64,000 nt of DNA from Methylophaga thiooxydans DMS010 (GTDB taxonomy: Bacteria > Pseudomonadota > Gammaproteobacteria > Nitrosococcales > Methylophagaceae), in contig NZ_GG657906.1 of the NCBI RefSeq assembly GCF_000156355.1, positions 1 through 64,000 on the forward strand. The letters run 5' to 3'. Position 1 is the first letter of the stretch. Each line of letters opens with the position of its first letter. The notes below the pieces were generated by a model, which made no database searches, was not told the DNA's origin, and saw only the letters and a program-made list of their open reading frames with translations. The translations under genes were made by a program, and so were the position numbers. Below are positions 1 through 11,786 of the stretch, piece after piece.

Positions 1-1
1 A

Positions 2-628
2 TTCAACACTCTATCGAAACGCTTCGACCGTTTTGTTACTGAATCTGAAAACCGTGCCACATTAAGAGAGTTTGATATTGATTCTGTTCAACAACAGGTT
101 TCGGAACTAAAGGCTCAGGAAAAAGGTGCCAATTGGGCTAATTCTAAACTTAGCCCGTTTAAACAGAATAAATTTCCTACCATATCTAAAGCCTTGTCTA
201 GCATGATCAAGACACGGAGTAATCAACTTATAATTACCGTGAAAGCTACTGTGCAAGAGGTTGAAGCTATTGAGGCTGCTCAAAATGTAACCCTTGAAAG
301 GCCTCATTATGTTGAACGTCCTGTTGCTGAAATTGCTGGCTTAGAGGCTTTGTATGATGAGAACGACATCAGAGAGTTGGTGGTTATTCAGCTTGAAAGC
401 AATCTCAATCAATTGAGAGATGCCGATATAAATCAGCTCAGTTATCAAGATTTAGAGAAATGGGCGAAGTGGGTTAGAGAGGTTGACTCTTTAGTCAGTA
501 AAGCCACACAAATCATTCTCTTTGCCAGAGTGTTTCTCACTAGAGAGAACTTAAAACCACTTGATCGTTTAGGTGGCAGTTATGATGAATCTTCTGCATT
601 TACTTCTTATATAAAGCAGCTTAAATAG
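2..628 (+). CDS. Unrecognised protein, 5' end cut by window edge
   Basis: The frame is open from base 2 to a TAA at 626-628, giving at least 208 residues with the true start outside the window. An internal ATG at 194 is only the first Met visible. The product is hydrophilic, rich in Gln, Glu, Leu and Ala, probably largely helical, with no signal peptide or membrane segment. I recognise no family. It lies on the AT-rich flank that ends at the tandem repeats near 885-926, so it is more likely an accessory gene of an inserted element than part of the downstream cluster. A small gene follows 35 bp downstream on the same strand. Confidence 0.55.
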   Translation, partial: FNTLSKRFDRFVTESENRATLREFDIDSVQQQVSELKAQEKGANWANSKLSPFKQNKFPTISKALSSMIKTRSNQLIITVKATVQEVEAIEAAQNVTLERPHYVERPVAEIAGLEALYDENDIRELVVIQLESNLNQLRDADINQLSYQDLEKWAKWVREVDSLVSKATQIILFARVFLTRENLKPLDRLGGSYDESSAFTSYIKQLK

Positions 629-663
629 ATCATTAATTACCTATAGTTAGTTTGGAGTTTGTT

Positions 664-879
664 ATGTCTGGTTTTGTTTCTGTTGAGGTCGAAGGGAAGC
701 TCTATGAGTCTGAGTACCATGAAGTTGGTGGTGTGGTTCGGGTTTATGGTGATCTAGGTGACCCTCATAAGCCAGAGGTCGAGTTCACCACTCTTGGAGG
801 TATGAAGCCAGACCAAGTCGCTAGGATTTTGCTGAGACGTTTGGTTAAGCGAGGAGTAGTTTCGCCAACTGACGATTAA
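664..879 (+). CDS. Small unrecognised protein (71 aa)
   Basis: I chose the ATG at 664 because a TTTGGAG Shine-Dalgarno-like stretch lies just upstream (651-657). An in-frame ATG at 652 would place that signal inside the gene. The product is a short, charged, soluble protein: its N-terminal half looks beta-rich (alternating Val, Glu and Gly), and its C-terminus contains a basic Arg/Lys-rich helix. No family was recognised. It is the last gene before the tandem repeats at 885-926 and probably shares a transcript with the partial gene upstream. It is presumably cargo or an accessory gene of the inserted element. Confidence 0.5.
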   Translation: MSGFVSVEVEGKLYESEYHEVGGVVRVYGDLGDPHKPEVEFTTLGGMKPDQVARILLRRLVKRGVVSPTDD

Positions 880-884
880 ACTAC

Positions 885-926
885 AGATCGCAATTCATGT
901 GGCGAGAGATCGCAATTCATGTGGCG
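885..926 (+). repeat. Two tandem 20-bp direct repeats at element edge
   Basis: The 20-mer AGATCGCAATTCATGTGGCG occurs at 885-904 and again, identically, at 907-926, giving a 22-bp period. No further copy follows, and the receptor coding sequence starts immediately afterwards. Identical closely spaced repeats at an apparent insertion junction suggest transposase binding sites at a transposon end. This is inference, since the other end is not in the window. Confidence 0.7.
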
Positions 927-2724
927 GCCTACAATGGAGTTGTTCAGCAAGGTGCCTGGTGTCTATTTTGCCCGTTATAACCAAGGCATCATCAACACCG
1001 ATATTGGTATCCGAGGCTTTGCTGCTGAGGGCAGCACACCACATGCAAAGCTCTTGATTGATGGGATTCCAGCCAATTTGCATAACGGCTACAGCGAAAT
1101 GGATCAATTGTTTCCCGCGAATATTGATTCGGTGCAAGTGTTCAAAGGCAATAGTGACCCACGTTATGGCTTACATAATGTTGCCGGTAATTATACGATT
1201 AATACCCGAACTGATCTTGCCCGTGAGGTTGAGCTAACCTACGGCAGTTTCAATGCCAAAGAAGTACAGGCCTACGCAGGGGAGCAGACAGGTAATCTGC
1301 AACATAGTTACTTTATCGGCTATCGTGAAGCCGATGGCTACCGGGATAATGAGCAACTGGAAAAGATCAGTGCCTCCGGTCGCTGGTTCTATGATTTCAG
1401 TGATGACACCCGTATTGGTTTTATTGCTCGTGTCGCAGAATATGACGCCGATGCCGCCGGCTACCTGTCTCGCGAAGAAGCGCGCAAACACCCGACCCGT
1501 TCGGCGGACTATGCGCGCCTAGATGGTGGCGATAAACAGACTCAATCGTTCAGTCTGCACTTCGATCATGCCTTCAGTGACCAGTTGGACTGGTCAGTCA
1601 AAAGCTATTTCAATCATTACGAGCGTGAGCGCTGGGTACGCTACAGCGAAGCCTCAGATTTGCAAAACCGCTATGATGATCAGGACCACTATGGTGTTAT
1701 TTCGACCCTGAATTGGCAGGTTCATCCTGACTGGGAAATTCAGTGGGGTGTGGATGCTGAGCGCCAGGATGTCATAGAACAACGCTTTGGTACGGTGGGT
1801 TTCCAGCGTCAGCGCGATAGCAGTGCGGTCGGCAGGGACTACGATTATCGATTTGTCAGCTATGGCAGCTACCTGCAAGTGAGTCATATGCCGGTGGATT
1901 GGCTGGCCTGGAATGTTGCACTGAGAGGCGATCGAATCCGTGGTGAGTTCACCTCTACCGATAGTGCCGGTCAGCAGGAACAACGCAATATCTACGACTT
2001 TGGCACCATTGTTCAGCCGAAAGCTAACCTGTTTTTATACCCCACTGATGATGTGACCTTATTCGTGAACGTGGGCCGTAGCTTTCAGCACCCACTTGGT
2101 TCTGCTGCCTACACCACAGGCAATACTAGTGCTCGTGATGTTTCACTCAACGATGGCTGGGAAGCCGGGGTGAAATGGCGCCTCTTCGATGCGCTGCAAC
2201 TGCGTGCTTCCTACTGGGAGCAAAAAGCCAGCGATGAGTTTGTGATGGTCGACGGTGTGCCGAGAAATGTCGGTGAAACACTGCGGGAAGGTATCGATCT
2301 CGGATTTGACTGGGATCTGACTGAGAAACTGACGCTGTGGGGTAATATTGCCGGTGTCGATACCGAAATTCAGGCCGACGGGGCGAATAAAGGTAACGAA
2401 CTGCGCAGCATTCCAGACTACACGGCATCATTGGGGCTGAGTTACTTGATCCTGCCCGAATTAACCTGGCGTGTACATCTGGACTCACAAAGTGGTTCCT
2501 ATGTGAACGAAGAAAATATTGGTGGTCAGTACGGCCATTACAATCTCGTGAATACCAGCCTCGATTACCTGACGGATTGGGGCAATATCAACTTACAGGT
2601 TAATAACCTATTCAACGAGTATTACGAATATGTCTATGACCTAGGGGCGGCGAATACAGTGGACACAATTCACTCGCCGGGTAATGGCATCAATGCGAGT
2701 GTTTCTGTCGCCTACCACTTCTAG
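919..2724 (+). pseudogene. TonB-dependent receptor, N-terminally truncated by insertion
   Basis: The frame encodes about 600 residues of a TonB-dependent outer-membrane receptor, beginning inside the plug (KVPGVYFARYNQG, then the IDGIPANLHNGY and VQVFKGNSDPRYG plug motifs) and running through the beta-barrel to a C-terminal aromatic residue (VAYHF). The signal peptide, TonB box and first part of the plug are missing. The first codons lie in the tandem repeat at 907-926, so homologous sequence probably starts near 930. Without a signal peptide it cannot reach the outer membrane, so I call it a remnant. It sits 8 bp before two ABC-2 permease genes in a metal-uptake context, which suggests the intact receptor imported a metal or metal chelate. 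Confidence 0.75.
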
Positions 2725-2732
2725 GAATTGCC

Positions 2733-4148
2733 ATGATTTTTTCGATAGCCAGGCATGAACTGGTCACACTATGGCGGCAGCGTACCCTGAAAATACTGTT
2801 GCCGATGATGACGTTGCTGACCTTGCTGGTGGCAGTTAATCACTGGCAACAGCAACAGGATTTTATTGAAGTTCAGCAGCAATGGCAGCAGCTGAACAAT
2901 GAAAAATGGGAAGCTCAGCCGGATCGCCATCCACATCGGGTGGCACATTATGGTTCGATGGCCTTTCGTGTGATCTCGCCGCTGAGCTTTCTTGATGCAG
3001 GGGTCAATCCTTATGTCGGTAATGTTCTGTTTCTGGAGGCACATCGACAGAACAGCAGCCAGTTTAAACAATACCTCAGCAGTCAGAACTATATGCAACT
3101 TGGTTCCATGACGGCATCAACGCTGATTTTGCTTATCTGGCCGTTGGTAATGATTGCGCTTGCTTATCGTACGGTCAGTGGTGAACGCCAGCAGGGTACG
3201 CTGCGTCAGGTGCTGTCACTCGGCGTATCATTTCGGCAACTGTTACTGGGTAAAGCATTGGCCTATATGCTTGTCACTTTAGTGTTTCTAGGGCTTGTGT
3301 TTGGCATTGCCGCGGTATTTTTGAGTCAGGCAGTGCTAGACACCGATATTATCCAGCGTTTCTTCTGGTTGTTTGCTCTCTATGGTCTTTACTGTGCTAT
3401 CTGGGTAGAGATCATTCTACTCGTTTCATCCCTGACCACTGGAAACAATCAGAGTCTCTCTGCGTTACTTCTGGTGTGGTTACTGATAACGATTATTGTG
3501 CCTAAACTGATGTCAAGCTCTGCCGACTGGCTCTATCCATTGCCGGATAGAGCGGTATTTGATATCAGAACCGCTCAGGCGATTGCCCAAATTGGTGACT
3601 CACATAATCCGGATGACCCTCACTTTGATGCCTTCAGGCAGCAGACGCTCGATCAGTATGGTGTTGAGCATGTTGAAGACTTGCCAGTTAATTGGCGAGG
3701 CCTGGTTATGCAGGAAGGTGAACGTATTACCAGTGAGGCATTTGAAGCGGTCTATGCCGATGTGAGTCGAAGTATTGAAGATCAGCGTCGCTGGGTCATG
3801 TGGGGATCGTTATTGAGTCCATATATCTTGAGTCGATCGCTGTCCGGCAGTCTTGCATTAACCAGCTCTGATCATGTCCAGCGCTATGAAATGGCGGCAG
3901 AACGCTATCGTTATAGCTTGATTCAATCTCTGAATACACTGCATGCCGAAGATATTGACCTGGCTCACGACCGGGAACAAAAAGTGTCACAGGAATACTG
4001 GGCGCAGTTGGCTGATTTTGAATATCAGCCACCACCATTAAAAGCTGACTGGGCGACGATGAGGCAGTCAGTCATCGTATTTAGCTTGTGGCTTTTTGCT
4101 GTGTTTTCAGTGTTAATGTTTATTCGCCCCAGGATGACAGCATCATGA
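2733..4148 (+). CDS. ABC-2 type transporter permease, DUF3526-like (first of pair)
   Basis: A 471-residue inner-membrane protein. One membrane segment lies near residues 20-36, a large periplasmic loop follows, and a block of about five hydrophobic segments occupies residues 125-270. A second hydrophilic domain and a last membrane helix end at about residue 465. This is the topology of ABC-2 permeases of the DUF3526 group. It carries TVSGERQQGTLRQVLS, the conserved cytoplasmic motif of these permeases. AGGAA precedes the ATG. The next gene overlaps by ATGA and encodes a sister permease, so they probably form a heterodimer. No cognate ATPase is adjacent. It may have lain upstream of the truncated receptor, or the pair may use an unlinked ATPase. 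Confidence 0.8.
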   Translation: MIFSIARHELVTLWRQRTLKILLPMMTLLTLLVAVNHWQQQQDFIEVQQQWQQLNNEKWEAQPDRHPHRVAHYGSMAFRVISPLSFLDAGVNPYVGNVLFLEAHRQNSSQFKQYLSSQNYMQLGSMTASTLILLIWPLVMIALAYRTVSGERQQGTLRQVLSLGVSFRQLLLGKALAYMLVTLVFLGLVFGIAAVFLSQAVLDTDIIQRFFWLFALYGLYCAIWVEIILLVSSLTTGNNQSLSALLLVWLLITIIVPKLMSSSADWLYPLPDRAVFDIRTAQAIAQIGDSHNPDDPHFDAFRQQTLDQYGVEHVEDLPVNWRGLVMQEGERITSEAFEAVYADVSRSIEDQRRWVMWGSLLSPYILSRSLSGSLALTSSDHVQRYEMAAERYRYSLIQSLNTLHAEDIDLAHDREQKVSQEYWAQLADFEYQPPPLKADWATMRQSVIVFSLWLFAVFSVLMFIRPRMTAS

Positions 4149-5509
4149 GACGCTATCTACTTGAATTGAAACTTTTCTGGGCAAATCGATTTAACCGGTG
4201 GTTGCTGATTGCTTACTTTGTGGCCGCGCTGGCGGCCATTGTTATGGGAAACAATGCTTATAAGCATGAGCTCAGTCTTGTTGCAATGGCAGAGGATGAC
4301 TATCAACAATCATTGCTAGATTACCGTGATAAGCATGATGCCGGCGAACTTAAGCCGGGTTATATGGGCTATTACCTGTTTCATCCTGTGGCACAGACGC
4401 CATCTGTCTGGACGACTTTGTTTCGGGGCGAGCGAGATGAATCCCCCAGTCACCTCAGAGTGCGGTTGCTGGGTTTGCAGACACAGCTTAATGCCTCAGA
4501 TCCTGTCAACGCAGACACGCTATTGAGTGGGCAGTTTGATTTGGCTTTTGTCTGGCTGTTTTTGATGCCATTACTGATTGCCGCGATGGGAGTGAATGTA
4601 CTGGCCGATGAAAAAAGCAGTGGTCGATGGTCGATGCTGTTGTCGCAGGTGGCACAGGGGCGAACGATCATTAATCGTAAACTGGCAATGCCGGCACTGA
4701 TCTTGGCTGCGGTTAATATTATGATCCTTGCCTTAGCGGTTGTTCTGACTGACCTTCACTTAAGTTGGGCACTGGTCGGGGTAACGGTACTGGTCTTGCT
4801 CTATCAGTTGTGCTGGTGGCTAATTTGTCGCTGGATTGTCATGCTCGATCGCAGTGCTAGCTTTAATTATCTCGCTTTTCTCAGTATCTGGCTTTTTTTC
4901 AGCTTTGTGATTCCCGGTTTGTCGTATTTGTATCAGGTTAAGCAACAAAAGCCTGGCGCTGATGCGGCCATTGTTTTTGAGCAACGTCAGTATATGAATG
5001 ACAGTTGGGACAGAGATAAATACGCCGATTTTGCCGATTTCCTAGAACGGTTTCCTACTTGGAGTGATACAGCGCCACTCGGGGATGAGTTTGATTGGCG
5101 ATGGTATTACGCTATGCAGCACATGAGTGATGTTGTTGTGGCAGACCATGTTCAGCAACGTGTTGCCAGTAAAAAGGCAAGTTATGAACAAGGTGTACTG
5201 TTTTCTTGGTTCTCACCGGTAATGAGTCTTCAGTACGGTCTTAACCGCCTTGCTGATGCTGATACAACGGCATACCTCAATTTTATAGAGCAGGTCAGTG
5301 ATTATCATCGTCAGCTGGAAGATTTCTTATGGTCGTTTTTGTTCTTTAATAAACCGTTTGAGAAAATCGACTTTGAGCATATGCCCGACTTTAGTTATGA
5401 AAGCGACCCCAAGCCGTGGATGGACGCTACTTTGTTAAAACTACTGTTGATTATGGGCGTTTTCGTCGCGCTGAACTTGAATAGTGTGAGAAGAGCGGCA
5501 TGGTGGTAA
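4145..5509 (+). CDS. ABC-2 type transporter permease, DUF3526-like (second of pair)
   Basis: A 454-residue membrane protein related in layout to the preceding gene: an N-terminal helix, a long extracytoplasmic loop, clustered membrane helices around residues 130-270, a second soluble loop and a C-terminal helix. It contains the corresponding motif LADEKSSGRWSMLLSQ. I chose the ATG at 4145, which overlaps the upstream TGA as ATGA. An earlier in-frame ATG at 4088 lies inside the upstream gene. The partner ATPase is absent from the neighbourhood. The substrate cannot be read from sequence. The surrounding cluster suggests a metal or metal ligand. Confidence 0.8.
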   Translation: MRRYLLELKLFWANRFNRWLLIAYFVAALAAIVMGNNAYKHELSLVAMAEDDYQQSLLDYRDKHDAGELKPGYMGYYLFHPVAQTPSVWTTLFRGERDESPSHLRVRLLGLQTQLNASDPVNADTLLSGQFDLAFVWLFLMPLLIAAMGVNVLADEKSSGRWSMLLSQVAQGRTIINRKLAMPALILAAVNIMILALAVVLTDLHLSWALVGVTVLVLLYQLCWWLICRWIVMLDRSASFNYLAFLSIWLFFSFVIPGLSYLYQVKQQKPGADAAIVFEQRQYMNDSWDRDKYADFADFLERFPTWSDTAPLGDEFDWRWYYAMQHMSDVVVADHVQQRVASKKASYEQGVLFSWFSPVMSLQYGLNRLADADTTAYLNFIEQVSDYHRQLEDFLWSFLFFNKPFEKIDFEHMPDFSYESDPKPWMDATLLKLLLIMGVFVALNLNSVRRAAWW

Positions 5510-5531
5510 CCTCCTACAAAAGAAGATTTCT

Positions 5532-7193
5532 ATGACTGTTATTTGTTTGAAAAATGCCCGTGTTTATGACCCTCTACAAGAAGCAGATGGCGAGGTCATG
5601 ACGTTGTGGATTGAGGATGATCGTATCATCCGCGAGCCCACAGCTGAGATAAAAAAGAAAGCGACGGTGTATGAGCTTGATGGCGCTGTCACAATGGCTG
5701 GGGCGCTAGATATTCACAGCCACATTGCTGGTGGCAACGTCAACACTGCACGACTGATGTTGCCCGAGGCGCATCGCAGCCACCTTGAGCGTAATAACAA
5801 AACACCATTTGCCAATGCGAAATGGTCATCATTTGAAACCGGTTATCGCTATACAGAAATGGGCTACAGCATGGTAGTCGAGCCTGCGATGTTACCGGTC
5901 AATGCCCCTCAGGTGCATGCAGAACTGGCTGATATTCCCATTATTGACACTGCGGCGCTGGCTGTTCTGGGAAGTGATGATTTTCTGGTCAGATTACTGC
6001 GGGCCAATGCCAGTCAGGCACAAATTAATGACTATGTCAGTTGGACCATGAATGTGACCAAAGCATTGGGTCTTAAAGTCATCAACGCTGGTGGGGCGCA
6101 GGCCTTTAAAAAAGGGGCGGTTACGTTAGGTTTGGATGATATAGTGCCGGATTACGGCATTTCTTCACGCACGTTGTTACAGCGACTGCAAACTGCCGTG
6201 GTGCAGACCGGCCTGCCACACCCCGTTCATGTGCATTGCAATAATCTTGGTACACCGGGCAATATTCAGACGATTGTCGATACTATGGAAGCCGCACAGG
6301 GGCTACCGATGCACTTGGCGCATGTGCAGTTTTATGGCTATGGCGATGAGGGAAAGTATGGTTTTTCCTCATCGGCAGCAAAACTGATGGAGGCCTTCAA
6401 CCGTCATCCCAACATCACCATGGATGTGGGGCAGGTATTGTTTGGACAGACTGTGACACTATCGGGCGATGTAATGGCTCAGTTTGCTCGCCGGTATGAT
6501 GCCTCTCCGCAGAAGTGGCATGTTTGGCAGGCGGAAAATGAGGGGAGTGGCGGCATAGTCCCGTATCACTATAAAGCAGCCAGTTTCGTGAACGGACTTC
6601 AGTGGGCAATCGGTCTGGAGATATTCCTATTGTGTGATGATCCGTGGCGATTGTTTTTTACAACTGATCATCCTAATGGTGCGCCATTCACCCGCTATCC
6701 CGATCTGCTCAGACTGTTGATGGATTATGACTATAGGATGGACTGTCTCTCCAACCTGCACCCTGATATTGCCGAGATGACATTACTGGCTGGGATAAAA
6801 CGCGAATACAGTCTTTATGAGGTAGCTGTGATGACCCGTGCAGCGCCTGCGAAATTACTGGGCCAGAGTGATCGAGGCCACCTGAAACCCGGAGCCAGAG
6901 CCGATATCGCTGTTTATCGTGAGAATGCGGATAAAGCCGCTATGTTCCGTCGTGCTGAGAAAGTGTTTAAGAATGGGCAACTGGTAGTGGATAAGGGCAC
7001 GATTACAACGACAGCGAGTGGTAATACAGTGGCACTTAATGTGGGTTATGACAGCGGTATTGAGCGCCATATACAGACCTATTTTGATCGCTTTTACAGT
7101 CTTCGCCTTAGTAACTATGGTGTGACAAGCAACGCCGAGCAGTTTGAGAAACGGTTTCAAACACATAAAGTCAGCGGCGCTTTTTCAAGTTAA
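5532..7193 (+). CDS. fhcA: Formylmethanofuran dehydrogenase subunit A-like amidohydrolase
   Basis: This 553-residue protein matches the FmdA/FhcA type of amidohydrolase. In methylotrophs FhcA belongs to the formyltransferase/hydrolase complex that frees formate from the formylated methanofuran analogue during formaldehyde oxidation. The metal-site residues look intact: His62 and His64 (DIHSH), Lys182 as candidate carboxylated lysine, His233/His235, His261/His264 and Asp379 (TTDHPNGAPF). The family signature FETGYRYTEMGYSMVVEPAM lies at 101-120. Partner genes fhcB, C and D are not nearby. Instead the gene sits 22 bp behind two ABC permeases and before MerC/ZrgA/CobW genes. I infer it may be a paralogue used under metal limitation, but it could be the only copy. 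Confidence 0.8.
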   Translation: MTVICLKNARVYDPLQEADGEVMTLWIEDDRIIREPTAEIKKKATVYELDGAVTMAGALDIHSHIAGGNVNTARLMLPEAHRSHLERNNKTPFANAKWSSFETGYRYTEMGYSMVVEPAMLPVNAPQVHAELADIPIIDTAALAVLGSDDFLVRLLRANASQAQINDYVSWTMNVTKALGLKVINAGGAQAFKKGAVTLGLDDIVPDYGISSRTLLQRLQTAVVQTGLPHPVHVHCNNLGTPGNIQTIVDTMEAAQGLPMHLAHVQFYGYGDEGKYGFSSSAAKLMEAFNRHPNITMDVGQVLFGQTVTLSGDVMAQFARRYDASPQKWHVWQAENEGSGGIVPYHYKAASFVNGLQWAIGLEIFLLCDDPWRLFFTTDHPNGAPFTRYPDLLRLLMDYDYRMDCLSNLHPDIAEMTLLAGIKREYSLYEVAVMTRAAPAKLLGQSDRGHLKPGARADIAVYRENADKAAMFRRAEKVFKNGQLVVDKGTITTTASGNTVALNVGYDSGIERHIQTYFDRFYSLRLSNYGVTSNAEQFEKRFQTHKVSGAFSS

Positions 7194-7223
7194 CGTCACG
7201 GAGATTTTTTAATCCATTTTTAG

Positions 7224-7240
7224 TGATATGATACATCATA
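7224..7240. promoter_or_regulatory. Candidate Zur-type operator upstream of the MerC-zrgA-CobW genes
   Basis: TGATATGATACATCA at 7224-7238 is an imperfect palindrome 18 bp before the MerC-like start codon. The reverse strand over 7228-7240 reads TATGATGTATCAT, matching TATGTTGTATCAT at 9873-9885 in 12 of 13 bases. A shared site at two promoters of one metal-related island suggests a common repressor. It resembles gammaproteobacterial Zur boxes of the ATGTTATAWYATAACAT type. Assignment to Zur is inference. Confidence 0.45.
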
Positions 7241-7255
7241 AATTTTGAGGTGCTA

Positions 7256-7651
7256 ATGAAAGATAAAATGGCGGTGTTAATTTCCGGGCTCTGTCTGGTT
7301 CATTGTTTCCTGCCACCTGTGATAATCAGCGTGGGTATGATGAGCTTTGCTGGCAACATTCTGGAGTCAGAATGGGTACATATTGCCCTTTTATGTCCCG
7401 TTGTCGTGTTGGCAGTATTGAGCCTACCTTCTGCTTATCGTCGCCATCGGACACGCTGGCCAATGGTACTGGCTGTATTGGGTATCACCGGATTTTGTAG
7501 TGCGTTCTTACTACCGGAATCCATGGAGCTATGGATTACCGTTATGGCCGCCGGATTGATGATCCTTGCGCATGTCTGGAACAGAGTACTGTTACAGCGC
7601 AGTCCGATTATAATGGCCTCACCGCAGGTTTTGGCTCGTGTGGTTAAATAA
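7256..7651 (+). CDS. MerC-like small membrane protein
   Basis: A 131-residue inner-membrane protein with about four membrane helices. It starts with the MerC-family pattern LCLVHCFLPP (Cys and His in the first helix, Pro after), which in MerC proteins takes part in metal-ion transport. I chose the ATG at 7256 with TGAGG just upstream (7246-7250). A GTG at 7250 overlaps that signal. It is the first gene after the candidate operator at 7224-7240 and is followed by a ZrgA-like gene 16 bp downstream. In this setting a role in zinc or other divalent-metal handling seems likelier than mercury resistance, because merR, merT, merP and merA are absent. The specificity is inferred. Confidence 0.7.
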   Translation: MKDKMAVLISGLCLVHCFLPPVIISVGMMSFAGNILESEWVHIALLCPVVVLAVLSLPSAYRRHRTRWPMVLAVLGITGFCSAFLLPESMELWITVMAAGLMILAHVWNRVLLQRSPIIMASPQVLARVVK

Positions 7652-7667
7652 CAAGCAGGAGAAACGT

Positions 7668-8225
7668 ATGATTATGCAAGCGGCCAATAACACATTTGCA
7701 GTCTGTTTCTTAAGTGCTCTTTTTAGTCTCGGTTCTATTCCGGCTGTGCTGGCAGCAGAAGATCACCATGAACACCATCAGGTCTCAGCTGAGGCGCATG
7801 TTCACGGAAAGGCAGAGCTCAATATCGTAATGCAGGAGCAGACAATACTGATTGAGTTCATCTCACCACTGGAGAATTTGCTGGGCTTTGAACACGCACC
7901 GGCCAACACTGAGCAAGAGCATGCCTACGACGCGTTAGTGCATAATTTGTTTGATTATCAATCCTTGTTTAGCCTCATTGATGTTCGCTGTGAACAGACA
8001 GGGCAGCATATTGAAGCGCCCTTTAATGAAACGCAGAATGCCCATGCTGAATGGCATGGTGAATATCATCTAAGCTGCACTGAAATCGGGGACGCCGCGA
8101 GTCTTAAACCAAAGCTGTTTTCAGCTTATCCAGGGGTGGAGTCACTGTCGATTCAGTTAATTTCAGAGCATGGCCAGTCACAACTCATTGCAACCAAAGA
8201 TAGTGATGCTATACCGCTTCATTGA
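7668..8225 (+). CDS. zrgA: ZrgA-like periplasmic zinc-binding protein (DUF2796)
   Basis: A 185-residue exported protein. The N-terminal signal peptide ends near AVLAAEDHHEHH, followed by a His-rich stretch (DHHEHHQ) and the family core VHGKAELNIVMQ. This is the DUF2796 family, typified by Vibrio cholerae ZrgA from the zinc-regulated zrgABCDE locus. It is thought to bind metal in the periplasm for an ABC importer. A strong AGGAG lies before the ATG at 7668. An upstream in-frame ATG at 7638 falls inside the previous gene. The neighbouring CobW-family GTPase and the LolD/FtsX-type transporter at 9920-11786 fit a zinc-acquisition module. Confidence 0.8.
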   Translation: MIMQAANNTFAVCFLSALFSLGSIPAVLAAEDHHEHHQVSAEAHVHGKAELNIVMQEQTILIEFISPLENLLGFEHAPANTEQEHAYDALVHNLFDYQSLFSLIDVRCEQTGQHIEAPFNETQNAHAEWHGEYHLSCTEIGDAASLKPKLFSAYPGVESLSIQLISEHGQSQLIATKDSDAIPLH

Positions 8226-8261
8226 TAATCAATGCTTGGCTCCGGCTAGTCCTGTCGATTT

Positions 8262-9287
8262 ATGAGTAAAACCCAAACCTTCAGTATTCAGAATGCGTTA
8301 CCGACCACGGTGATTACAGGCTTTCTTGGCGTCGGCAAAACGTCGGCAATACAACACTTGCTGAGTTATAAACCAGCCTCTGAACGCTGGGCGGTATTGA
8401 TTAATGAATTTGGCAAAGTGGGTATTGACCGTCAGATTCTTAGTAGCACAGCAGGTCAGCAAGGCAATGTCGAAATTCGTGAGGTCGCTGGTGGCTGTAT
8501 GTGCTGCTCTGCGGGCTTGCCAATGCAGGTTGCCCTTAATCAGTTGCTGAGAAGCAAGAAACTGGACCGGTTATTGATAGAACCCAGCGGTCTGGGCCAT
8601 CCTGAAGAAGTAATAGCCTCGCTGGCCGGCCCTAACTATCGAGGTCTGCTGGATATCCGTTCTACGTTGACGATGGTTGATGCCAGACATTTTAAAGATC
8701 GGCGTTATACCGAGCATCCGGTGTTTTTACAGCAACTACATATTGCCGATATGCTGGTGGTGAACAAAACTGATTTGTCTCAACTCAGTGACATCAAGCA
8801 GATGGAAAAAACCTTGATGGCTTTGCACCTAGGTGAACTGCCAATCAAGTACTGTGAGCAAGGCAAGCTTGATCTTGACTGGTTGTCGGCACCGGCTAAA
8901 TTTGATCGGGCAACATGGGCGAATCCCCCCAAGGTCGTTCAGCTAGAATCTGCCGAAACACCGTTAACCGATAGCGGGTTTTTAAGAGAAACTCAGCAAT
9001 TGGACGGCTGGCACAGCTGTGGCTGGCGCTTCGATAACGACTGGCTATTCAATTCAGCCCGTCTGCTTGAATGGTGCCATACGCAAAATCCAGACAGACT
9101 CAAAGCCGTGATAAACACCTCTGACGGCAGGCTCATCATCAACTGGGTGGAAGGTCAGTTAAGCTATCAAAATACGCAGTCAAGTATCGATGAGAGTCGC
9201 TTGGAAATGCTGTTTCAAAACAAGCCCGATGCGGACGAAATGGAGCGACTATTATTTCAATGCCGCTGTCATTATTCTTCGGTATAG
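8262..9287 (+). CDS. CobW/COG0523-family GTP-dependent metallochaperone
   Basis: A 341-residue G3E GTPase. It has the P-loop GFLGVGKT at 20-27, the family metal site GGCMCC with Cys79, Cys81 and Cys82, a Walker B-like IEPSG near 106-110 and guanine specificity NKTD at 168-171. The C-terminal CobW domain follows, with an ending that contains CRCHY. COG0523 proteins (YeiR, ZigA, ZagA) deliver zinc to client enzymes, and many are induced by zinc starvation. Its position behind zrgA fits that group. A plausible local client is the amidohydrolase at 5532-7193, which is inference. The 3' end overlaps the convergent DUF3299 gene by 16 bp. Confidence 0.85.
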   Translation: MSKTQTFSIQNALPTTVITGFLGVGKTSAIQHLLSYKPASERWAVLINEFGKVGIDRQILSSTAGQQGNVEIREVAGGCMCCSAGLPMQVALNQLLRSKKLDRLLIEPSGLGHPEEVIASLAGPNYRGLLDIRSTLTMVDARHFKDRRYTEHPVFLQQLHIADMLVVNKTDLSQLSDIKQMEKTLMALHLGELPIKYCEQGKLDLDWLSAPAKFDRATWANPPKVVQLESAETPLTDSGFLRETQQLDGWHSCGWRFDNDWLFNSARLLEWCHTQNPDRLKAVINTSDGRLIINWVEGQLSYQNTQSSIDESRLEMLFQNKPDADEMERLLFQCRCHYSSV

Positions 9288-9850
9288 GGTTCGATAGTAT
9301 CTACCGTCATGCTGTAGGCAGATTGCGCTACATCATTCTCAGTAAAGGTCGTTTTTATCGTACCTTGTAGCCAGTATGCATTGTAAATATCTTCAACCAG
9401 AATACCTTGCTCCGAGGTGACATAAATAATCTGATTGGGTGGCGGAGGCGGTAAGTGAATACAGGCACCGAAGTAAGGCACCAGAAAAAACTGCGTCACT
9501 TGCTGCTGGTCATTCATTTCTATGGGTACAATAAAGCCGGGCAAACGAATCGCCTTGTCATCATATGCGGCAACCACATCGGTCGATGATAGGGCTCGTT
9601 GATAAGCATCATCAGGCAAGGTGGATTGCTCCAACGCGCTGAGCATTTTGTCACTCAGTGCATCCTCGAGACTGCCGTCTTCGATTTCATTGATATATGC
9701 CGGTGGATTTTCCAATGCTTTTAGATCTTTTTCCGGCAGCAGATCAACCCAGTTAATTCGCTGATACGATGCAGCCTGAGCCACCCCTGATGTGATCAGA
9801 ATGCATAGAAAAAAAACATGACGGATTAAAACAGCAATATTGATTAGCAT
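9272..9850 (-). CDS. DUF3299 exported protein of a zinc-uptake cluster
   Basis: A 192-residue protein. The start at 9850 opens with a hydrophobic segment ending in VAQAASY, a good signal peptide. A farther upstream start (9988) would overlap the divergent ABC ATPase gene and spoil the signal peptide. The core motif FLVPYFGACIHLPPPPPNQ, with one conserved Cys and His, is the hallmark of DUF3299. Relatives accompany ZrgA and a MacB-like transporter in zinc-regulated loci. Biochemical function is unknown, and the Cys-His-polyproline segment could bind metal. It is divergent from the ABC genes with a candidate operator between them. Its 3' end overlaps the CobW-family gene. Confidence 0.75.
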   Translation of the reverse strand: MLINIAVLIRHVFFLCILITSGVAQAASYQRINWVDLLPEKDLKALENPPAYINEIEDGSLEDALSDKMLSALEQSTLPDDAYQRALSSTDVVAAYDDKAIRLPGFIVPIEMNDQQQVTQFFLVPYFGACIHLPPPPPNQIIYVTSEQGILVEDIYNAYWLQGTIKTTFTENDVAQSAYSMTVDTIEPYTEE

Positions 9851-9869
9851 ACACGACTCATTATTTTCT

Positions 9870-9885
9870 TGATATGTTGTATCAT
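9870..9885. promoter_or_regulatory. Candidate Zur-type operator between divergent DUF3299 and ABC genes
   Basis: TGATATGTTGTATCA at 9870-9884 is palindromic at its outer five positions. It lies in the 69-bp gap between the DUF3299 start (9850) and the ABC ATPase start (9920), placed to control both. It matches the site at 7224-7240 (opposite orientation) in 12 of 13 bases. Regulation by Zur is inferred from the motif and the gene content. Confidence 0.5.
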
Positions 9886-9919
9886 TCAGCATGATTGTAC
9901 ATGAATCGACAAGGTATAT

Positions 9920-10585
9920 ATGTTCGTTATTAACGATCTGAAGTTCCACTATCCGGATGATGACAACGATCTGCTTAACATCCCTCACTGGCAGGTGGCT
10001 GCCGGTGAATCTGTCTTTCTTTCAGCTCCCTCCGGGACAGGTAAATCGACGCTGGTGAACTTATTGGCCGGCATCATTACACCGCAGCACGGAACCATTC
10101 GCGTGATGGATAGCGTGATTAATCACTTATCCTCGCGCCAGCGAGACGCATTTCGTGCGCGTCATATTGGTATGGTGTTTCAGCAGTTTAATTTAATTCC
10201 TTACCTGAGTGTGATGGATAATATCCGTCTTGCCAGTCGATTCTCCGATATGAGCAGGGCTGAAGCGGACGAGCGAAGTCACACGCTGTTGCAAATGCTC
10301 GGTCTCACCACATTAGATGCGACACGCCAGGCAGAGCAGCTCAGTGTGGGACAGCAGCAACGGGTGGCGATTGTCCGAGCACTGGTCAATGAGCCGGCAC
10401 TGTTGTTAGTGGATGAACCAACTTCTGCACTGGATGCGGCGCATCGGGATCAGTTTATTGGTTTATTGATGCAGCAACTAGACACTTCCCGCACTAGTTT
10501 GGTTTTTGTGAGTCATGACAGCAGTTTGAAACACCATTTCAGCCGTCATGTGCATATAGGACAGCTCCAACATGATGCTGATTAA
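9920..10585 (+). CDS. ABC transporter ATP-binding protein, LolD/MacB type
   Basis: A 221-residue ATPase with Walker A SAPSGTGKST (35-44), Q-loop FQQFN (about 87-91), signature LSVGQQQRV (141-149) and Walker B LLLVDEPTSALD (161-172). This is the LolD/MacB/FtsE subfamily that pairs with FtsX-type permeases, and such a permease follows with a 14-bp overlap. Together with the ZrgA-like and DUF3299 proteins the pair resembles the ZrgBC part of the Vibrio zinc-regulated transporter. It acts on the cytoplasmic face of the inner membrane. Control probably comes from the candidate operator at 9870-9885. Confidence 0.85.
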   Translation: MFVINDLKFHYPDDDNDLLNIPHWQVAAGESVFLSAPSGTGKSTLVNLLAGIITPQHGTIRVMDSVINHLSSRQRDAFRARHIGMVFQQFNLIPYLSVMDNIRLASRFSDMSRAEADERSHTLLQMLGLTTLDATRQAEQLSVGQQQRVAIVRALVNEPALLLVDEPTSALDAAHRDQFIGLLMQQLDTSRTSLVFVSHDSSLKHHFSRHVHIGQLQHDAD

Positions 10586-11786
10586 ACTTGCTTGGCACAG
10601 CTTAGGGTCTCGTCTGGGCACCGTGCTGCTGACCATTATGATGATGAGCGTAAGTATCTTAGTACTGCTCAGTGTGGAAAATATTCGTCATCAGGCCAAG
10701 GAGAGTTTTCAACAAAGCGTGTCTGATGTCGATTTAATCGTCGGGCCTAGAACGGGACAGATCAATCTTCTGTTGTATTCTATTTTTCATATTGGGGTGC
10801 CGACGCACAACCTGAGTTGGGATAGCTACCAAATGTTGCAGCAACAACCGGAAGTTGACTGGACCATCCCGTTGTCATTGGGGGATTCACATCAGGGTTA
10901 TCGTGTGGTGGGTAGCGAGCAACAGTTATTTGAACATTTTCGCTATCGTGCTGATCATTCTCTGGAGTTTGCTTCAGGTAACGCATTTAATGAGACCTAT
11001 GATGCTGTAGTGGGGGCTGAAGTTGCTGCCAGTTTAGGTTATCAAACCGGGAATGCGATTGTCTTGGCACATGGTATCGCCGATACCAGTTTCAGTCGGC
11101 ATGATAACCACCCGTTTCAAATAAGTGGCATTTTAAAGCCCACAGGTACGCCAATTGATCGTTCTGTGTTTATCAGTCTGACTGGTCTGGAAGCGATGCA
11201 TGCCGACTTTCCCGGTGCCAATACTGCTCCTGATTTAACCCCACAATCGGTTACTGCCGTGCTGGTGGGGCTGACATCCAAAATTAAAACGTTCTCACTG
11301 CAACGGGAAATCAATACCTATTCCGCAGAAGCCCTGCAAGCAATTCTTCCCGGTGTGGCGCTAAGTAGTCTATGGTCGATGCTAAGTGGTGTGGAGCAGA
11401 CGCTCTGGGTCATTTCCTTACTGGTTTTGCTGGGAGCATTGATCGGCATGGTTAATGTGCTTTTATTATCCATGCGTGAAAGACGTCATGAACTCGCTGT
11501 CTTGAGAGCGCTGGGCTACCACCCCAGCTTTTTATTTGCTTTGCTGCAGTTGGAAGCGATACTCATCACCGCATCTTCAATCATAGTGGCATTACTGGCA
11601 TTGTCGGCTGGTGATATGTGGCTACGCGAATGGTTGTTATCCCAGTTTGGTTTGTTTCTTGCCGATTCTCTGCTGCAAGCTGGAACTTGGCGTTTAGTCG
11701 GCGGCATTATGCTGGCAGCTATTCTTTCAGCGTTGTTGCCTGCCGTGAATGCTTACCGGCAAGGTTTGGGGACACAACTACGTTAG
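10572..11786 (+). CDS. FtsX-like ABC transporter permease (MacB/LolC type)
   Basis: A 404-residue permease with one N-terminal membrane helix (about residues 15-35), a large periplasmic domain (about 40-260) and three C-terminal helices with the FtsX motif MRERRHELAVLRALGY at about residues 300-315. The periplasmic part begins with DVDLIVGPRTGQINLLLYSI, typical of the subgroup found with ZrgA and DUF3299. The ATG at 10572 overlaps the ATPase gene, and an ATG three bases later is equally possible. FtsX-type transporters usually work as mechanotransducers or exporters, so how this subgroup aids zinc uptake is not evident from sequence. Confidence 0.85.
   Translation: MMLIKLAWHSLGSRLGTVLLTIMMMSVSILVLLSVENIRHQAKESFQQSVSDVDLIVGPRTGQINLLLYSIFHIGVPTHNLSWDSYQMLQQQPEVDWTIPLSLGDSHQGYRVVGSEQQLFEHFRYRADHSLEFASGNAFNETYDAVVGAEVAASLGYQTGNAIVLAHGIADTSFSRHDNHPFQISGILKPTGTPIDRSVFISLTGLEAMHADFPGANTAPDLTPQSVTAVLVGLTSKIKTFSLQREINTYSAEALQAILPGVALSSLWSMLSGVEQTLWVISLLVLLGALIGMVNVLLLSMRERRHELAVLRALGYHPSFLFALLQLEAILITASSIIVALLALSAGDMWLREWLLSQFGLFLADSLLQAGTWRLVGGIMLAAILSALLPAVNAYRQGLGTQLR

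Follow-up and report, generated by a model that had tools for sequence, protein, structure and literature searches.

Zur regulons hold backups for enzymes of translation and of folate, histidine, pyrimidine and queuosine metabolism. FhcA is a metal enzyme required for the conversion of formaldehyde to formate; cells gain energy from formaldehyde oxidation and at the same time dispose of a toxic intermediate. The Zur-regulated paralogues of zinc enzymes described by Haas et al. (2009, PMC2770081) comprise HisI, PyrC, gamma-CA, HemB, CysRS, ThrRS, AmiA, QueD and DksA, together with FolE2. Zinc ligands are lost in the PyrC, HemB and DksA paralogues and retained in those of HisI, ThrRS, QueD, AmiA and CysRS, i.e., the loss is optional (PMC2770081). 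Among uptake systems, the zrgABCDE locus of Vibrio cholerae is listed as Zur regulated (PMC6103462). FhcA is absent from the family list of PMC2770081 and from a 2018 review of Zur regulons, and a literature search of open-access papers found no report that links FhcA or formylmethanofuran dehydrogenase to zinc, Zur or COG0523.

A second fhcA among zinc genes

The window (the whole stretch of 64,000 nucleotides analyzed here) is the start of contig C2 in the 3.05-Mb genome of Methylophaga thiooxydans DMS010, with Methylophaga as close relatives. Its first part contains the following features.

1..933, no strand: end of a Mu-like prophage (...CA), with a 5-bp target duplication, ATGGA, at 934-938
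919..2724, + strand: TonB-dependent receptor gene, 5' truncated by the prophage; the true receptor sequence restarts at 934
2733..4148, + strand: ABC-2 permease with DUF3526 (Pfam)
4145..5509, + strand: second ABC-2 permease with DUF3526; the partner ATPase is past the prophage, on C8
5532..7193, + strand: fhcA2, zinc-island paralogue of formyltransferase/hydrolase complex subunit A; 553 aa, metal ligands all intact
7222..7240, + strand: Zur-type operator AGTGATATGATACATCATA, between fhcA2 and merC-zrgA-COG0523
7250..7651, + strand: MerC-like membrane protein (Pfam)
7638..8225, + strand: zinc-uptake protein, ZrgA family (Pfam)
8262..9287, + strand: COG0523 (CobW-like) GTPase (profile match)
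9272..9850, - strand: DUF3299 protein (Pfam)
9868..9886, + strand: weaker Zur-type operator CTTGATATGTTGTATCATT (14/19), in the divergent DUF3299/lolD promoter region
9920..10585, + strand: zinc-island LolD/FtsE-like ABC ATPase (profile match)
10572..11786, + strand: zinc-island FtsX/MacB-like permease (Pfam)

The fhcA2 open reading frame is complete (ATG at 5532, stop at 7193), and its product matches TIGR03121 over the full length with 653 bits (cutoff, 393). The best solved relative is the FhcA of Methylorubrum extorquens (structure 6s6y; 504 bits), identity to which already fixes the fold. In an alignment of 51 FhcA2, 34 canonical FhcA and one archaeal FwdA, H62, H64, K182, H235, H261/H264 and D379 are invariant. 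From knowledge of the fold, we take these residues to be the ligands of a two-metal amidohydrolase (HxH, Lys, two His, Asp). The sequence-only reading of this locus, which described a full-length subunit A with intact metal ligands, was thus correct, and the metal-site residues are the same in FhcA2 and in the canonical FhcA. As every ligand is present, a low-zinc mechanism by ligand loss was ruled out, and zinc independence has no direct sign in the sequence. Of the 98 columns invariant in the 34 canonical FhcA, 92 are retained in at least 95% of the 51 FhcA2, as expected if chemistry and partners were unchanged; this favors FhcA2 hydrolyzing formyl-methylofuran within the Fhc complex. Five substitutions are specific to the clade (Q164, Q256, F289, R320 and D323). 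Compared with the two closest homologues, dN is ~0.08 and dS is saturated, which indicates that fhcA2 is under purifying selection.

A search of the 3.05-Mb genome recovered one other FhcA, 51% identical to that of the window, encoded on a different contig (G000:C11) in the order fhcB-A-D-C (fhcC was assigned by protein inspection, without a profile). The window gene is therefore a paralogue, with the genes of the normal complex at another site. A single fhcA is listed in a proteome study of M. thiooxydans. That the window gene is not the sole fhcA removes a point that would have told against the sequence-only reading; as that reading stated, the gene lies apart from fhcB, C and D and sits among zinc genes near a COG0523 GTPase. 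The neighbor families were assigned by Pfam, including ZrgA (PF10986) and CobW/COG0523 (PF02492). A recent duplication of the host fhcA was ruled out by the low identity and by the trees described below.

The Mu-like prophage that opens the window interrupts tonB near codon 70, as seen at the junction sequences. Its other end is on contig C8 (L062, G000:C8, about 3770-9770), and ATGGA is found at both junctions; the duplication and the TG...CA prophage ends were read directly from them. The C8 side of the prophage carries a transposase, a transposition protein and a repressor and borders on the 5' portion of tonB and a gene for an ABC ATPase. Past the prophage, in transcription order, C8 has an operator, a MerC-like protein, a DksA paralogue in which two of the four zinc-finger cysteines are present (by inspection), a ZigA-like COG0523 protein, DUF1826, Zur (Fur family) and the ABC ATPase. 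The possibility that fhcB, C and D lay just across the inserted element was thereby ruled out, since that side carries zur and other zinc genes and fhcBCD sit at C11. In relatives, the zinc-gene run is unbroken and ends in fhcA2; at L044, for example, zur, ABC ATPase, tonB, two permeases, COG0523 and fhcA2 are consecutive, with overlaps or gaps of less than about 120 bases. In the window strain, the prophage probably separates fhcA2 from its normal promoter, and with the operon cut from its upstream operator, it is doubtful that the native promoter drives expression in the DMS010 isolate.

Zur-type operators and zinc islands in relatives

Promoter comparison among relatives gave the operator variant used by Methylophaga, TATGATATGATATATCATA. 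It is very rare genome-wide and marks zinc operons; in relatives, it stands ahead of fhcA2 or of the operon containing it. With up to 3 mismatches allowed, the 3.05-Mb genome has four matches, and the reversed control has none. The noncoding matches are located before merC-dksA2-zigA-DUF1826-zur, in the hisI2/gamma-CA-like-ThrRS intergenic region and at position 7222 of the window; the fourth (C11:52762) is within pgk and was dismissed as chance. Nine other Methylophaga genomes contained 35 matches (versus 1 in the control), mostly just 5' of zinc genes among the sites examined. The standard gammaproteobacterial Zur consensus, GTTATANTATAAC, was not enriched in the window (27 matches versus 24 expected).

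Upstream Zur-type operators for fhcA2 or its operon were found in relatives at L032, L033, L035-L044, L063 and L103. Their placement varies. Where fhcA2 is the first gene (L032, L033 and L063), it has an operator of its own; at L035-L044, the operator separates zur from the ABC ATPase gene at the head of the fhcA2 operon, and similar palindromes are found 5' of the fhcA2 operons of L103, L104 and L105. A Zur-type site also lies directly upstream of fhcA2 in L163 and of the zur-ABC-tonB run in L150, L159 and L166. We infer from these positions that Zur would bind the predicted operators. At two loci (L070, 7918-10528, and L032, 5595-8185), one Zur-type promoter is common to zinc backup enzymes and to proteins named by inspection, namely, a SufE-like protein, an FAD-dependent oxidoreductase and a membrane transporter.

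FhcA2 was present in 19 of 24 Methylophaga genomes (≥70% identity), and genes of the same clade were found in two genomes of a sister genus. In the order of G287, there were 51 FhcA2 places (≥60% identity) in 48 of 201 genomes; pMMO subunit A was present in six of the seven members checked, which identifies these hosts as methanotrophs. A canonical-type copy accompanies FhcA2 everywhere except in G010 (Methylophaga, 68% completeness) and G570 (G287 order). We scored COG0523, DUF1826, ZIP, FolE2, HisI2, ThrRS2, DksA2, QueD and TonB as zinc-starvation genes. At least one lay within 1.5 kb at 26 of the 29 methanotroph-order FhcA2 loci and at none of the 34 canonical loci. Conversely, fhcB and/or fhcD accompany all 34 canonical loci and none of the 29; neither gene is beside FhcA2 at any of its loci, and membership of the FhcA family does not need them.

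The neighbors (COG0523, DUF1826, ZrgA, ZnuABC, ZIP, FolE2, HisI2, ThrRS2, DksA2 and TonB) make up the classic Zur-regulated zinc-starvation set. Families were checked by Pfam (FUR, DksA, cobW, DUF1826, PRA-CH for HisI, ThrRS domains, amidohydrolase for the PyrC-like protein, GCHY-1 for FolE2, Zip, ZnuA, ABC-3 and PTPS); the gamma-CA-like protein has a hexapeptide family match only, and the SufE-like protein was named by inspection. Arrangements differ. In L032, fhcA2 comes after zur and faces an operon whose genes include ThrRS and HisI paralogues and others resembling gamma-carbonic anhydrase and dihydroorotase; in L103, it belongs to a single run with zigA, DUF1826 and znuCBA; and in L104 and L105, it stands alongside FolE2, HisI2 and COG0523 plus ZIP or QueD. 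One Methylophaga genome, G009, has two zur-like genes in separate zinc loci, fhcA2-zur-sufE-thrS2-pyrC2-hisI2 (L063) and merC-DUF1826-zrgA-zur-DUF3299-lolD-ftsX (L064).

Zinc neighbors are absent at four loci of the clade, L110, L112 and L116 (with bioA and cysD-like genes beside) and L102 (with groESL). In L102 (9474-11218, G028), fhcA2 is out of the zinc island and follows groESL, and a Zur-like palindrome, TGATATGTTATAACGTATCA, is kept just upstream. L110, L112 and L116 belong to methanotroph-order genomes with three FhcA copies, in which a lone FhcA is found by bioA, bioD and cysD, without zinc genes. Methylocystis plasmids (L167 and L168) also carry a lone FhcA, near pyrC, bioA, bioD, cysD and fdh (M. 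rosea) or katG and fdh (M. heyeri). These lone copies, by biotin and sulfate-assimilation genes and on plasmids, look like backup sets for another stress. Two methanotroph-order FhcA2 genes have one in-frame stop each (G549:C12:16031-17662, TAA; G590:C1:3683961-3685640, TGA), reflecting decay or assembly error.

In a 63-row tree, the FhcA2 of Methylophaga, the sister genus and methanotrophs formed one clade (100/100), apart from the housekeeping FhcA of their hosts. It groups with alphaproteobacterial FhcA and with the single-copy FhcA of Chromatiales/Thiotrichales-type genomes, several of which sit in fhc clusters. The 51 FhcA2 stayed together in an 85-row tree (SH-aLRT, 99), in which L126 and L132 are near identical across two families, a sign of FhcA2 transfer.

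Possible roles of FhcA2

We consider it probable (about 0.75), judging from genome sequences, that FhcA2 is an isoform under Zur control that stands in for FhcA within the Fhc complex when zinc is low. A low-zinc isoform had been suggested for the window gene alone; the zinc-starvation islands of Methylophaga, the related genus and methanotrophs and their Zur-type operators now give this idea good support at the genome level. When zinc falls, Zur would leave its operators and the zinc-starvation operons, FhcA2 included, would be expressed. FhcA2 would then substitute for the housekeeping FhcA together with FhcB, C and D, hydrolysis of formyl-methylofuran to formate would continue, and formaldehyde oxidation would go on. 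The observations cover the paralogue, its clade and zinc-island setting, the operators and the conserved active site; that Zur represses the gene, that FhcA2 assembles with FhcBCD and which metal it uses are what we infer. Because all ligands are kept and yet the lineage is foreign to the host copy, FhcA2 most likely differs in metal affinity or choice, not in chemistry; the two-metal site might hold Fe, Co or Mn, or the COG0523 GTPase encoded alongside might load it with zinc. That FhcA2 is a metallochaperone client of COG0523, as had also been suggested, is possible. Points against the isoform reading are the retention of every ligand, the need for a lineage-foreign FhcA2 to join the host FhcBCD, the four loci of the clade that have no zinc neighbors and, in the window strain, the prophage between fhcA2 and its upstream operator. 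A more specific version, in which zinc starvation leads to a hybrid Fhc complex that contains the horizontally acquired FhcA and works with a non-zinc metal, installed with the help of the co-encoded COG0523 protein, is tentative and on balance doubtful.

The strongest competitor, which we regard as unlikely, is that FhcA2 is an ordinary zinc FhcA, with undistinguished metal properties, and that its extra synthesis keeps some enzyme metallated, COG0523 perhaps supplying the zinc. The retention of all ligands agrees with such a dosage or priority copy, and so does the frequent adjacency of COG0523 to fhcA2 (Haas et al. can be cited in support). However, the simplest source of such a copy is duplication of the host gene, and what we find instead is one foreign FhcA clade across Methylophaga and methanotrophs, suggestive of selected properties and a mild argument against mere dosage.

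There is much less room for a new substrate, e.g., a zinc-binding small molecule imported by the neighboring TonB/ABC proteins, with the C1 role gone. The amidohydrolase fold is broad enough for it, and most Methylophaga encode fhcA2 directly after TonB-ABC-COG0523 genes, but these partners are inconstant, as the neighbors differ by lineage; moreover, the 92 retained canonical-invariant residues and the co-occurrence of a canonical FhcA in nearly all FhcA2 genomes argue against it. Least probable of all, by a little, is a passenger gene in a mobile zinc island, without a zinc-related role: zinc islands are indeed rearranged and exchanged among lineages (L126 and L132 again), but FhcA2 is retained across many genera under purifying selection, is repeatedly tied to differently arranged islands and has its own operator where it comes first (L032, L033 and L063).

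Implications and comparison with known systems

If the low-zinc isoform reading is true, zinc supply would limit formaldehyde oxidation in marine methylotrophs and methanotrophs growing on DMS, methanol or methane, and core one-carbon metabolism would be added to the processes protected against zinc starvation in Methylophaga and many methanotrophs. Zinc stress in these bacteria could be followed with the gene as a testable marker, and FhcA and FhcA2 would be a natural isoform pair for asking about the metal range of the Fhc active site. FhcA would be a new enzyme family among Zur-controlled backups of zinc enzymes; we found no earlier report.

Like the zrgABCDE locus of V. cholerae, the window has a ZrgA-family protein with an ABC ATPase, a permease and a DUF3299 gene nearby. 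We assume a gene-by-gene equivalence of zrgB-E with the zinc-island genes of the window, and the DUF3299 protein (9272..9850) is presumably the ZrgE of Vibrio. Unlike in V. cholerae, these zinc genes are joined to TonB/ABC-2, MerC, COG0523 and FhcA2.

Compared with the M. extorquens FhcA (6s6y), FhcA2 is a full-length homologue, with all metal-site residues, and a member of TIGR03121; it differs in that its gene lies apart from fhcB, C and D, inside zinc-starvation islands, and that its host genomes have a canonical FhcA besides. Like the paralogues of PMC2770081, FhcA2 is a second copy in a cluster of COG0523, DUF1826, zur and zinc uptake genes that is preceded by Zur-type sites, and, like those of HisI, ThrRS and QueD, it keeps its metal ligands. 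It differs from them in belonging, as a subunit, to a central energy pathway of methylotrophs and in being xenologous to the housekeeping copy.
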